Source: a virus
Direction: 5' to 3' (one strand)
Length of the DNA: 25,371 nucleotides
Virus record (IMG/VR): IMGVR_UViG_3300035117_000128
Span: 1 to 25,371 of that record
Of the stretch, positions 3,294 to 7,032 are shown piece by piece (position 1 is the first letter of the stretch; every line of letters begins with the position of its first letter). Below the pieces are notes generated by a model. That model was given only the letters and a program-made list of their open reading frames with translations. It was not told the DNA's origin and made no database searches. Position numbers and translations under genes: made by a program.

Positions 3294-3458
3294 TCAGGCC
3301 GCGACGGTCTGGCGCTGCTCAGCTTCGTAGGAGGCGAGGATCTTTCGCAGCAGAAGAGCGGCCTGGTCGCCCGGCTGGCGGCGTTCCTCGGCGCTCAGCC
3401 GTCGCAGACGTTCGAAGCTCTCCTGGTCAAGTTTGACGTACAGAGCGCTGTTTGCCAT
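3294..3458 (-). CDS. Ribbon-helix-helix (Arc/CopG-like) DNA-binding protein
   Basis: 54 aa. Residues 4-45 fit an RHH fold: a short strand ALYVKL, then helix DQESFERLRRLSAEER and a second helix GDQAALLLRKILASYEAEQ. RHH dimers insert the strand into the DNA major groove and usually act as repressors. The gene follows the composite element at 3491-3525, whose inner end lies exactly 32 nt before this ATG. A possible -10 (AATACT, 12 nt before the ATG) sits 17 nt after TCGACG. It is therefore probably transcribed from its own regulated promoter as well as from the upstream HTH gene's promoter. Confidence 0.8.
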   Translation of the reverse strand: MANSALYVKLDQESFERLRRLSAEERRQPGDQAALLLRKILASYEAEQRQTVAA

Positions 3459-3490
3459 GACGCCAAGTATTCGCCACCGTCATGCCAGCG

Positions 3491-3525
3491 TCGACGCCTC
3501 TGATCGGACATTCGGCTGGAATGTC
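3491..3525 (-). promoter_or_regulatory. Composite regulatory element, copy 1 (GACATTCC-N13-ATCAGAGGCGTCGA)
   Basis: Read on the minus strand, GACATTCC (3525-3518), 13 nt, then ATCAGAGGCGTCGA (3504-3491). The same two blocks with the same 13-nt gap occur on the plus strand at 4543-4577. In both copies exactly 32 nt separate the element from the next ATG. The inner end could supply a -35 (TCGACG) with AATACT as -10, 17 nt downstream. It probably marks a shared operator/promoter for the RHH gene. Confidence 0.7.
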
Positions 3526-3532
3526 CGATCAG
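3500..3532. repeat. Perfect 14-bp palindrome (operator or hairpin)
   Basis: CTGATCGGACATTC (3500-3513) and GAATGTCCGATCAG (3519-3532) are exact reverse complements around GGCTG. It lies between the HTH gene stop (3541) and the RHH gene and overlaps composite element copy 1. The lack of a T-tract after it on the minus strand argues against a simple terminator. A repressor operator, or an RNA hairpin that separates the two genes, fits better. Confidence 0.8.
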
Positions 3533-3540
3533 GCGACAGA

Positions 3541-3870
3541 TCAGTCGCCGCGAATGGCTAACGCCCAGAATCGCAGAAAACCTTCCCATCCCGGCAAGTC
3601 TGCCCGCTCGAGCCAGCGACCGATCGTGCGCCCAGTGCAGCCAAACGCCTGCGCCGCATCAGCCTGGCGCGGAGGCAGGTCCGCCGCGGGGAGTCCTGCA
3701 GCCCACTCGCAGAGATCGACGAGGAACTCGAGCGGCCCATCCCACTTGGCCGTCACGCTTCGATGACCGCCCCTTCCCTGCCGAAGAGCAGCCGCAATCT
3801 GCTTTCGATCAGATGACGACAAGGCTGCCCCTTGAATCTCAGCCAGGATGCGCTCTGCTAATGGGTCCAT
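3541..3870 (-). CDS. HTH DNA-binding protein, first gene of the minus operon
   Basis: 109 aa from an ATG preceded by a good GAAGGGG site. The C-terminal part holds a helix-turn-helix at about 69-90 (QADAAQAFGCTGRTIGRWLERA), of the kind used in phage regulators and terminase-like adaptors. The N-terminal region is charged and helical (AERILAEIQ, DRKQIAAALRQG). It is divergent from another HTH gene at 4137 across a roughly 266-bp control region and is preceded by a LexA-type box. It is probably the switch protein that starts the early minus operon. Family membership beyond HTH is not recognised. Confidence 0.75.
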   Translation of the reverse strand: MDPLAERILAEIQGAALSSSDRKQIAAALRQGRGGHRSVTAKWDGPLEFLVDLCEWAAGLPAADLPPRQADAAQAFGCTGRTIGRWLERADLPGWEGFLRFWALAIRGD

Positions 3871-4136
3871 ACATCCCCTTCGACTAGAACACTTGTTCTT
3901 CTTTTTACTGCCTGGGCGTGTTGTTTGCCAGCATGTCCCCTACACGTAACACTTTTACATCCAAATGGTATGCGACGCCGGTATGCCAGTTGGCCTATCC
4001 TTTACGCCAACATCGCAGACATTCCACATAAGCATCCCCCGTGTTTCTGGCCTACGCACCCGACAGTCCGAGTAGATACCAGTGACGCATGGCTATACTG
4101 CGCCTCCAAGAGGAGGGAGCGGCCGTCTCCGCCGCC
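3871..4136. promoter_or_regulatory. Divergent control region between two HTH genes
   Basis: About 266 bp without a convincing gene, visibly richer in A/T than its surroundings. Besides the LexA-type box it holds a possible plus -10, TATACT (4094-4099), 37 nt before the ATG at 4137. A strong AGGAGG lies at 4111-4116. A plus ORF could start at ATG 4089, but the TATACT would then lie inside it. One isolated GACATTCC occurs at 4018-4025 without the second block of the composite element. Confidence 0.55.
3886..3899. promoter_or_regulatory. Candidate LexA (SOS) operator
   Basis: AGAACACTTGTTCT holds GAAC-N4-GTTC, the core of the LexA box known from Bacillus, Actinobacteria and some Chloroflexota. 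It lies 16 nt upstream of the HTH gene ATG, just after a weak promoter on the minus strand (CTGGCA, 18 nt, TAAAAA), so bound LexA would cover the transcription start. It suggests DNA-damage induction of the minus operon. It is a pattern match only. Confidence 0.55.
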
Positions 4137-4532
4137 ATGCCAGGCCAGCGACACAAACGTTTTCTGGATCGTCAGCAGTTTGTCGACGAAATGCTGGCTG
4201 CGGTCCGCGCTAATCCTGGTGCGGTCACTCAGGCTGGCTTGGCTCAAGCGCTTGGCCTGAGCGCACGGCAGCTATCGCGAGAACTGAAGGCCTTTGCGGT
4301 CCCTTGGCCGCCGAACGGTCGCCAGTCCTGGCACGAGCTCGCACAACGAGCTGCGCAATCACCGCCGGCCGACGCCTGGTTGATTACGTGCCGCGTGACC
4401 GCGGCAACCCTTGGTGATGCCGCGGCGAAGCTTCGAGCCGAGGACGGCGTCTTCATCATCGAAGCCAAGCGTCTCGAATCGGCATCAGTTCCGGCATCGA
4501 GCTGGCGTGTCCTGCTCTCGGACAAGCCGTAG
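4137..4532 (+). CDS. HTH DNA-binding protein, divergent regulator
   Basis: 131 aa from ATG 4137; an alternative ATG at 4089 would add 16 residues. An HTH lies at about 30-52 (VTQAGLAQALGLSARQLSRELKAF). The second part (about 62-128) has an alpha/beta look: HELAQRAAQ, AWLITCRV, GDAAAKLRAEDGVFIIEAKR, SWRVLLSD. The AGGAGG at 4111 is 20 nt from this ATG, which is too far unless a CGGC/GCCG hairpin between them shortens the gap. It diverges from the SOS-linked HTH gene and ends 10 nt before composite element copy 2. It is probably one half of the lysis/lysogeny or excision control. No family is recognised. Confidence 0.7.
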   Translation: MPGQRHKRFLDRQQFVDEMLAAVRANPGAVTQAGLAQALGLSARQLSRELKAFAVPWPPNGRQSWHELAQRAAQSPPADAWLITCRVTAATLGDAAAKLRAEDGVFIIEAKRLESASVPASSWRVLLSDKP

Positions 4533-4542
4533 ACACGCATTA

Positions 4543-4577
4543 GACATTCCGACGGTCTGTCGCATCAGAGGCGTCGA
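4543..4577 (+). promoter_or_regulatory. Composite regulatory element, copy 2 (GACATTCC-N13-ATCAGAGGCGTCGA)
   Basis: GACATTCC (4543-4550), 13 nt, then ATCAGAGGCGTCGA (4564-4577). It is the inverted partner of the copy at 3491-3525, with 22 of 22 block bases identical and the same gap. The next ATG (4610) is 32 nt away, as in copy 1. TCGAAT followed 17 nt later by CAGACT could be a weak promoter. Neither copy lies in a long ORF. Confidence 0.7.
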
Positions 4578-4609
4578 ATTGCGCCGTTGCTCGCCCCAGA
4601 CTGGTGAGC

Positions 4610-4771
4610 ATGGCCGATCGGGAACTGACACCGGATGAGCGGCTCTCGGAAGTAACCCGTCTGCTCGCGGAAGGCGCTCGCTTACTCCTGGAGAAGCGTC
4701 GCGCCCAGACGCCCACGACTGAAGCAGATCAAGCTGCGGCGGACAAAGCCGAGGCAAGTTCACGAAGTTGA
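4610..4771 (+). CDS. 53-aa helical protein downstream of composite element
   Basis: Starts ATG GCC GAT after a GGTGAG site and ends at TGA 4769-4771. Residues 5-30 form one amphipathic helix (ELTPDERLSEVTRLLAEGAR, then LLLEKRR). The rest is an Ala/Glu/Asp-rich tail. Short proteins with this helix are often found next to integrase genes, but no function is known to me. It runs toward the integrase and overlaps its 3' end by 43 nt, tail to tail, so the two transcripts are complementary there. The shared upstream element suggests co-regulation with the RHH gene. It could be an excision helper or a small regulator (inference). Confidence 0.65.
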   Translation: MADRELTPDERLSEVTRLLAEGARLLLEKRRAQTPTTEADQAAADKAEASSRS

Positions 4772-6462
4772 GTAGCGGGAAAGATATGTCTGGTCGCGTA
4801 CGTATCGTTCCCGCGACATGCTTCACTCTCGGGCTCAAAGCACAACACGCTCGTATGTGGATGCTCGCGACGTGCCCAGGCGCCGTCGACCACGCGTACC
4901 TGGTTACCGGTCAACGCGCGGTACTGCCGCAGCCGCCAACGACGGTTGAATCCGTCGCCCTGCGCCTCAATGCGGACACCTGCGAACAGCAGTCGATAAA
5001 TGCGGTGCTGCTGCTCCCAGGGCAGTGTGTCGAAGGCGTCAAGCGGCGACTCAAGCAGGATCTGGCACCAGGCAGCAAGCTCTGCGTCTGTATCGGCTGC
5101 TACTTTCTCCTCGGCCACCTGGTCGCGAAGCTCTGCCAACTCCGCCTCGACCTCACCCAGGCGAGCGATCAACGACGCGGGCGGCGTGACCTTACCCCAG
5201 AGTTGATCGTTGATCCACTTCGCGCGGTCCTCGAGAAAGGCAAGCCGCTGGGCCGCCGCGGACGACGCGTGCGCCTGCTGTTGTGCGCGCAGCTCAGTAG
5301 CGACCACCTGTGCGTCGTACATGACACGCGGCAGTTCATGGCGCAGAAGTTGCGCGGCGACGTTGGGGCTCAATGCCTGCGGGGCTGCACACACAACACT
5401 CTTACGCGCAGCGTGTGTGTGGCCCGAGCGAGCAAGCGTGCCGAGCGCCGAGCACGCATAGGTACGCTCGCCGCGGGCAATCATTGGATGCCCACAACCG
5501 TTGCATTCGAGGACACCCGACAGCGGATGGGGATGTCGAGTCTCGACGGTCCGCACGCTTCCAGGATGGTCGAACTTCAACCGCCAGCGGCGGACCTGAG
5601 CCGATGTCCAGTAGGCGAGCTCGGGTACATGCTGGCGGAAGTCCTTCGGCTGGCCCGTCTGCGGGTCAGTAGCGAAACGGTGCCACACGATAGACCGCTT
5701 TTTCAGGCGCGTCCCGAAGGTGAACGTACCGGTGTAGATCGTGTTTCGCAGCAGGTAGCGAAGACTTTGAACGCTCCAGTGGGTGGTCGTCCCACCCCGA
5801 CCTTTGAATGCAGGCCGCGGCGGGCCGTACGTGTTGAGCCGTCGCGCCATCTGAGACAGCGAATCACTGTCCTCGAAGAGGCGCGTCAACTCAGCAAGCA
5901 ATTCTTCGTGGTCGGGGTTCTTGGCAACGCGACGGATGACTCGACGCGCGTCGTCAGGCTTCAGAATTTCGGTCATGTAGCCAATCGGCGGTCGCATGTA
6001 CACGGGCTCGTGTTCCAGTTTCTTGAACAGTCCCGACCAGAAGGTATTGCGGATGCTGCGCCAGTCGATGCCAGCCAGCATGCACTGGAACTGAAACTGC
6101 AGCAGATCGTCATCGTTACGCAGGTCGTAGTCGCGGTCCCACGTAGCGAACAGGCCGCCCGCGTCGACAATACGGCGGGCGATATCGCCACCGTCCATGC
6201 CGAACTCGTCGCGCGTCAGTCGCTTGACGTCCAGGGCGCCGATCCCTTGAATGCGGCCCTGGCGCAGGTCCTCGAACATCTGGAGAGCGACGGTGCGCTT
6301 GGACAGATGAGCACCCGAGATGCCCTGCTCGTCATAGACGCGGACCTGATAGCCGCGCCCCTCAAGGCGCTCGACCATGTCGAACTGAGCCTCAGAGCGG
6401 AAGTTGCCAATCTGACGCACCGTCGAATTCCGAATGGTCAGACCGATAGTCGCGCCTGTCAC
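4729..6462 (-). CDS. int: Large serine recombinase (phage integrase)
   Basis: 577 aa from a GTG at 6462. Longer ATG readings run back over the upstream gene and add an unlikely basic tail. The resolvase domain (about 5-145) has R11-N-S13 (catalytic Ser), YDEQGISG, and KRLTRDEFG with active-site arginines. A recombinase domain follows (about 155-290), including PPIGYM and LLRNTIYTGTFTFG. A zinc ribbon has Cys320, 323, 337 and 358, and a coiled coil sits at about 425-470 (LGEVEAELAELRDQVAEE). This layout is that of phage integrases that join attP and attB. The gene follows a zinc-ribbon protein and the repressor in a lysogeny operon. No att core could be assigned. Confidence 0.93.
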   Translation of the reverse strand: MTGATIGLTIRNSTVRQIGNFRSEAQFDMVERLEGRGYQVRVYDEQGISGAHLSKRTVALQMFEDLRQGRIQGIGALDVKRLTRDEFGMDGGDIARRIVDAGGLFATWDRDYDLRNDDDLLQFQFQCMLAGIDWRSIRNTFWSGLFKKLEHEPVYMRPPIGYMTEILKPDDARRVIRRVAKNPDHEELLAELTRLFEDSDSLSQMARRLNTYGPPRPAFKGRGGTTTHWSVQSLRYLLRNTIYTGTFTFGTRLKKRSIVWHRFATDPQTGQPKDFRQHVPELAYWTSAQVRRWRLKFDHPGSVRTVETRHPHPLSGVLECNGCGHPMIARGERTYACSALGTLARSGHTHAARKSVVCAAPQALSPNVAAQLLRHELPRVMYDAQVVATELRAQQQAHASSAAAQRLAFLEDRAKWINDQLWGKVTPPASLIARLGEVEAELAELRDQVAEEKVAADTDAELAAWCQILLESPLDAFDTLPWEQQHRIYRLLFAGVRIEAQGDGFNRRWRLRQYRALTGNQVRVVDGAWARREHPHTSVLCFEPESEACRGNDTYATRHIFPATQLRELASALSAAA

Positions 6463-6475
6463 GCGGCGTCTTTCA

Positions 6476-6694
6476 CTAGCACGGGCAGTTGGCCTCGTGC
6501 GACGGGTCGCGCCACTGGCGACACTTCGGGCATTCGACCATCGCGACATTCGAAAGGCGGTCGCCTGTTTGCTCAGCCGCACTGGCCAACCGTTCAGACT
6601 CGCGGATCAGCCAATCCCAGACGCCATGCCACAACTCGCGCCTCGTCGCCATGTCATCAATCGGGACCAGTCGATCGTCGGGTAAAATTGTCAT
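6476..6694 (-). CDS. Small zinc-ribbon protein upstream of the integrase
   Basis: 72 aa from ATG 6694, which follows GGAAAGGAA by about 9 nt. The longer ATG at 6748 would read through the terminator-like stem. The N-terminal half is acidic and helical (LVPIDDMATRRELWHGVWDW, LIRESERLASAAEQ). The C-terminus is CPKCRQWRDPSHEANCPC, four Cys in CxxC...CxC form plus a His, a likely zinc knuckle. The stop is 13 nt before the integrase GTG, so the two are probably co-transcribed. It may help the integrase or act as a directionality factor. This is inferred from position only. Confidence 0.7.
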   Translation of the reverse strand: MTILPDDRLVPIDDMATRRELWHGVWDWLIRESERLASAAEQTGDRLSNVAMVECPKCRQWRDPSHEANCPC

Positions 6695-6770: not shown

Positions 6771-6995
6771 CTCGTCCTCGGCAGGACGCATCAGGTCCGC
6801 GGGCTTGACGCCGAGCGCGGTGGCCAGCTTGCGGATCGTGCTGGTGTACGGGTCCTGGATGCCAGCCTCGATGCGCGACAGACTCGCAGGCGTCAGGCCA
6901 GCCTTCTGTGCGAGCTCGCGCTGGTTCAGGGCCTGGCGTTCGCGTATCGCCCGCAGGCGTGGCAACTTCACCACATCGGTATCGTACTCGGTCAT
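6768..6995 (-). CDS. Cro/CI-family (XRE) HTH repressor
   Basis: 75 aa from ATG 6995. The HTH_3 domain fills residues 14-66: LRAIRERQALNQRELAQKAG, LTPASLSRIEAG, then a second helix pair ending VKPADLMRP. A longer start at 7031 is possible, but the -10 TATAGT (7008-7003) leaves only 7 nt to ATG 6995, so the message would start at or near that codon. This is the likely immunity repressor, binding operators in the divergent promoter region and blocking the plus operon from 7059. It is co-directional with the zinc-ribbon and integrase genes, as in many compact lysogeny modules. Confidence 0.85.
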   Translation of the reverse strand: MTEYDTDVVKLPRLRAIRERQALNQRELAQKAGLTPASLSRIEAGIQDPYTSTIRKLATALGVKPADLMRPAEDE

Positions 6996-7002
6996 TGACG
7001 AG

Positions 7003-7032
7003 ACTATATCAACTCTTGCGTTCCTATGCATG
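7003..7032 (-). promoter_or_regulatory. Repressor promoter, near-leaderless
   Basis: -10 TATAGT (7008-7003) reads toward the repressor gene. The -35 is poor (around ATGCAT at 17 nt). Only CTCGTCA separates the -10 from ATG 6995, so the transcript would start at or next to the start codon. It overlaps the plus promoter's -35, as expected for a mutually exclusive switch. Confidence 0.6.

Follow-up and report, generated by a model that had tools for sequence, protein, structure and literature searches.

A matched pair of predicted operator-promoters at the outer edges of a putative lysis-lysogeny region in a group of metagenomic phages

Stoperators of the L5-type mycobacteriophages are, like the sites described here, repressor-type sites in a temperate phage. 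The switches of lambda (CI/Cro) and TP901-1 (CI/MOR) span about 1 kb and contain two HTH regulators that are transcribed apart, along with a shared operator sequence (PMC7250872), all of which recurs at the locus analyzed here. Like this locus, phage 186 (Tum), N15 (AntC), and the Gifsy phages (antirepressors) have one of their regulator genes preceded by a LexA-type box (PMC3121763). The SP-beta SprA/SprB pair and similar integrase-excision factor units combine a large serine integrase with a small neighboring gene that has a promoter of its own, of an inducible type (PMC6957869), while in the leaderless promoters of Deinococcus-Thermus a -10-like motif lies a few nt upstream of the start codon and no clear Shine-Dalgarno sequence is seen (PMC12340547); both arrangements have their likeness in the region too.

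The stretch of DNA under study, here called the window, is a virus record of 25,371 bases, in which two exact inverted copies of a composite element, GACATTCC-N13-ATCAGAGGCGTCGA, had been predicted. Direct reading of the sequence bore this out, with copies at 3525-3491 on the minus strand and 4543-4577 on the plus strand. No further match with up to 3 mismatches was found elsewhere in the record, and among 100 dinucleotide shuffles none gave two copies, or even one (mean 0.00); the pair is not expected by chance. The claimed spacing held as well, since the last base of each element was read to lie 32 nt from the next ATG, at 3458 on the minus strand and at 4610 on the plus strand. Overlooked in the original prediction was that GACATTCC is one half of a palindrome. 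Copy 1 is located within the longest perfect inverted repeat of the window, CTGATCGGACATTC-GGCTG-GAATGTCCGATCAG (3500-3532; 14-bp arms), and copy 2 forms a looser palindrome, GACATTCCGACGGTCTGTC (GACA-N11-TGTC). Taken as arms over their full 35 nt, the 2 copies are 80% complementary. Each element can be described as a palindromic operator, GGACA-N11/12-TGTCC, joined to a promoter, and at both sites in the window the operator centre is situated 58 nt upstream of the start codon. Another perfect palindrome, AAAGAATTCGCGGTAACGTTCCGCGAATTCTTT, with 13-bp arms, was found at 962-994, within a gene for a Dam-type methylase.

For comparison, IMG/VR was queried with the integrase, HTH1, HTH2, the 53-aa protein, and the RHH protein encoded in this region, which yielded six diverged relatives: L006, L009 (with L007), L012, L019, L030, and L029. 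The contig of L029 starts just upstream of the RHH gene, while the other five contain the whole region; all sequences compared are metagenomic. L003 and L004 carry the exact pattern, but are identical to the window over the compared region; as they represent the same phage and thus provide no independent evidence, they were left out of the counts. Two further contigs, L020 and L021, were matched by the profile of the 53-aa protein, but showed no such region on inspection and were set aside. Relatives of the 53-aa protein and the integrase were not found in the GTDB genomes, and no close relative was found among named phages, where identity reached only 24-26% for the integrase and 20-28% for the capsid, with no match of weight for HTH1. 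The features of the region are as follows:

3294-3458, minus strand: RHH-like gene (54 aa), first of the leftward unit; family A3/A10, kept in all relatives.
3466-3471, minus strand: -10-like AATACT of copy 1, 7 nt before the RHH ATG, at the NANRNT position.
3491-3504, minus strand: ATCAGAGGCGTCGA block of copy 1, covering the -35 region; exact in both copies.
3500-3532, minus strand: putative operator of copy 1, a perfect palindrome with 14-bp arms and core GGACATTCCAGCCGAATGTCC (3506-3526), centred at -58 from the RHH start; at the same place in six relatives.
3541-3870, minus strand: HTH1 (109 aa), weak HTH_23 match; relatives in L012 and L030.
3887-3898, no strand assigned: LexA-type box GAACACTTGTTC, 17-28 nt before the HTH1 start codon; at the same place in L012, L030, L006, and L019.
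4094-4099, plus strand: TATACT, probable -10 of the HTH2 promoter as read from sequence; TATACTGCGCCT is kept in L012 too.
4137-4532, plus strand: HTH2 (131 aa from the conserved start), weak HTH matches; relatives in L012 and L030.
4542-4562, plus strand: putative operator of copy 2, AGACATTCCGACGGTCTGTCG, centred at -58 from the start of the 53-aa gene.
4564-4577, plus strand: ATCAGAGGCGTCGA block of copy 2, covering the -35 region.
4597-4602, plus strand: -10-like CAGACT of copy 2, 7 nt before the ATG of the 53-aa gene.
4610-4771, plus strand: 53-aa gene beside the integrase; relatives in L006, L009, and L019.
4729-6462, minus strand: large serine integrase (Pfam Resolvase/Recombinase, phrog_95), tail-to-tail with the 53-aa gene.

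The five complete relatives share one order. An element separates the RHH gene from a first regulator; after the divergent region come the second regulator, the other element, the small gene, and the serine integrase. The operator precedes the RHH gene in all seven phages (the window and six relatives) and the small integrase-side gene in all six complete regions (the window and five relatives), counts that are not independent, as the phages share descent. The layout outlives its integrase, given that the serine integrases of L012 and L030 were missed by the IMG/VR search with that of the window, and that HTH2 of L030 is 43% identical to its counterpart there. In L006, L009, and L019, HTH2 and HTH1 are replaced by an XRE protein and a protein of 137-142 aa, and the GGACA half-sites are kept. 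The end of the latter protein weakly resembles HTH2 (probability 40%); otherwise, it looks unrelated. The leftward genes include a methylase gene and a transglycosylase-like gene, with a RecT gene also present on the corresponding side of L006. In L012, the RHH protein (L012:3174-3338) is 85% identical to that of the window, as against 57-58% for HTH1 and HTH2, a hint that the RHH gene evolves more slowly or has been exchanged.

Across these phages, a GACA-N11/12-TGTC palindrome was found at a fixed place before 13 start codons (7 of RHH genes and 6 of small genes), with 45-48 nt between the end of TGTCC and the start codon (46 for the RHH gene of L019). A NANRNT motif ends 6-7 nt upstream of the start at 13 of 13 sites, compared to 4.5% of all ATG and GTG codons in the window. 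Variants of this -10-like motif include CAGACT, CACACT, CACGCT, and AATACT, among similar ones; the first base is mostly C, and no clear Shine-Dalgarno sequence is seen. In other bacteria, leaderless promoters are an established type, their TANNNT sitting a few nt upstream of the start codon (PMC12340547). Here too, a -10 motif is found at a fixed distance of a few nt from the start codon, so that the promoters are predicted to be leaderless, with transcription starting at or next to the start codon. Such a promoter geometry would account for the constant 32 nt. A standard sigma-70 scan gave no promoter at the switch region.

The block between operator and -10 is specific to groups of phages: GGCRTCGA in the window, L012, L029, and one copy of L030 (the other copy has GGCGTTTA), and TGTCnyGCCGG in L006, L009, and L019. 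The inner operator bases vary between phages (GGACATTC, GGACAGA, GGACAAA, and GGACACGTT). The two arms of one site agree more than arms re-dealt among sites do (31 vs 21.3, P 0.018), which is what a symmetric dimer with a shifted preference would be expected to leave. The exact GGACA-N-TGTCC site was found one to three times per phage record, each time inside the switch region, with an extra copy near the start of the RHH-side regulator in L006, L009, and L019 only. In diverged relatives, then, the genes persist together with the element and its spacing, and in each phage record the operator is confined to the switch region, so that neither of the two outcomes named beforehand as refuting the prediction was seen. 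The main reading of the original prediction, a shared promoter/operator for both flanking genes, is well supported, and we consider it very probable that the two copies form an operator-promoter pair. Operator, promoter, and start codon would then stay one unit of fixed geometry while the regulators change.

The inverted copies flank a 1-kb core and a serine recombinase is adjacent, which had led to a secondary prediction of an invertible segment. This reading, in which the copies are recombination sites of such a segment, or attachment sites, is not supported and seems to us very improbable. All six complete regions agree in gene order and orientation, even where the integrase differs (L012 and L030), such that the second orientation expected of a segment of the Hin/Gin type was not seen, and the arms of one phage agree at operator and promoter positions only. 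Furthermore, a better candidate for attP is present at 4772-4817. Equally remote, in our view, is a role of the palindromes as RNA hairpins, either terminators or leader structures, after the HTH genes: while a 14-bp stem is conceivable for copy 1, immediately past the HTH1 stop codon, neither copy has a T run or a terminator call, and several other copies pair at only 5-8 of 10 positions.

The alternative attP candidate is an imperfect inverted repeat (18-nt arms, 83%) in the 3' end of the integrase gene, just past the stop codon of the 53-aa gene. It is kept in four phages (L006, about 6610-6665; L009, about 600-650; L019, about 3412-3460; and the window), and integration there, if it is attP, would change the C-terminus of the integrase. 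The 53-aa gene and the integrase gene overlap tail-to-tail by 43 nt (4729-4771), with similar overlaps in L006, L009, L019, and, with another integrase, L030. No family match was found for the 53-aa protein. Its place beside the integrase and the candidate attP makes a role in excision attractive, and we tentatively suggest that it could be an excision factor. The XRE gene beyond the integrase, where TATAGT precedes an in-frame ATG by 7 nt (about 6990-7010), may be leaderless too.

The core encodes two divergently transcribed proteins of DNA-binding type, HTH1 and HTH2, whose profiles match each other over the HTH (probability 86%). AlphaFold2 models of both (three-sequence alignments, mean pLDDT 72) gave no significant match in the PDB, nor did PDB sequence profiles match either protein. 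Between the divergent regulators, GAAC-N4-GTTC was found in five of the six cores, and with one mismatch in that of L009, while it occurred in 1-2% of shuffled cores; the whole record holds a single copy in the case of the window, as does that of L006. In Bacillus and Mycobacterium, LexA has GAAC-N4-GTTC as its motif (PMC3323433). At the level of sequence, then, five of six cores carry a LexA-type box at the promoter of the presumed inducing gene, and in the window its place 17-28 nt before the HTH1 start codon is a predicted repressing position. An SOS input to the switch is probable.

The region is best read as the lysis-lysogeny region of a temperate phage. On balance, we favor a model in which the two copies are the matched operator-promoters of both outward units, served by one core regulator, with HTH1 held by LexA and induced by damage. 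The positions of the elements, their conservation, their fixed spacing, and the agreement between the arms of each site are observed; we infer what binds them, which way control runs, that SOS feeds in, and that the 53-aa protein acts in excision. Against the model stand the exchange of regulators in L006, L009, and L019, the imperfect LexA-type box of L009, and the negative sigma-70 scan. One symmetric core regulator would bind both operators, and the leftward operon (from the RHH gene onward) and the 53-aa gene would be switched together. That both operators share one binder is likely, and a core HTH protein is a plausible one; HTH1 and HTH2, which share the HTH motif, might be rivals for these sites. 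HTH1 would be kept off by host LexA sitting on the GAAC-N4-GTTC box, and would be made upon DNA damage. HTH1 would more readily activate both promoters than merely uncover them, since an operator centred near -58, ahead of the -35 region, speaks for activation rather than simple repression. Whether HTH1 acts as a direct activator is nearly evenly balanced in our judgment, leaning slightly against.

The same operator position bears on another reading, in which a CI-like repressor beside the 53-aa gene (HTH2, or XRE in L006, L009, and L019) keeps both promoters closed in the lysogen, and the gene under LexA control encodes an antirepressor that acts on this repressor rather than on DNA. XRE is a classic repressor fold found at the place of HTH2, and LexA-controlled antirepressors such as Tum of phage 186 and those of the Gifsy phages are known (PMC3121763). 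However, with the operator centres at about -58, neither the -35 nor the -10 is covered, and HTH1 itself carries an HTH, making this reading unlikely, if still a serious one. We give less weight still to the RHH protein as the binder, feeding back on its own gene and the 53-aa gene. It is encoded by the sole gene of DNA-binding type present in all seven phages, directly behind the element, but L009 and L019, whose operators are alike, diverge strongly in its N-terminal strand, and the RHH assignment was made by eye, with no Pfam match.

If the model with a LexA-held core regulator is confirmed, this would be a compact switch in which one operator type couples lytic transcription and excision, and would offer a test of which residues in the regulators change along with the operators. 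It might even represent an undescribed class of SOS switch, although we regard this as doubtful: an HTH activator under LexA control would turn on a mirror-image pair of leaderless promoters flanking the two regulator genes, so that early transcription and excision begin together, and the inner operator bases would be retuned from one phage to the next, giving immunity groups. In any case, a control region has been defined from sequence for a phage group without a close relative in the named-phage and GTDB sets searched.

Several differences set the locus apart from the described systems. Unlike the dispersed stoperators of L5-type phages, of which no equivalent in many copies over the genome was found, the sites here number only two or three per phage record, all in one region. 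The -10-like motif mostly starts with C, rather than the T of the Deinococcus-Thermus leaderless promoters, and the predicted 53-aa excision factor has no demonstrated sequence relation to the SP-beta SprA/SprB unit. In contrast to Tum, AntC, and the Gifsy antirepressors, the gene behind the LexA-type box encodes an HTH protein inside the immunity region, its LexA control being predicted. Finally, whereas CI/Cro and CI/MOR have their operators between divergent promoters, the paired operators described here are placed outside the regulator pair, beyond the 3' ends of both regulators and before the genes that follow.
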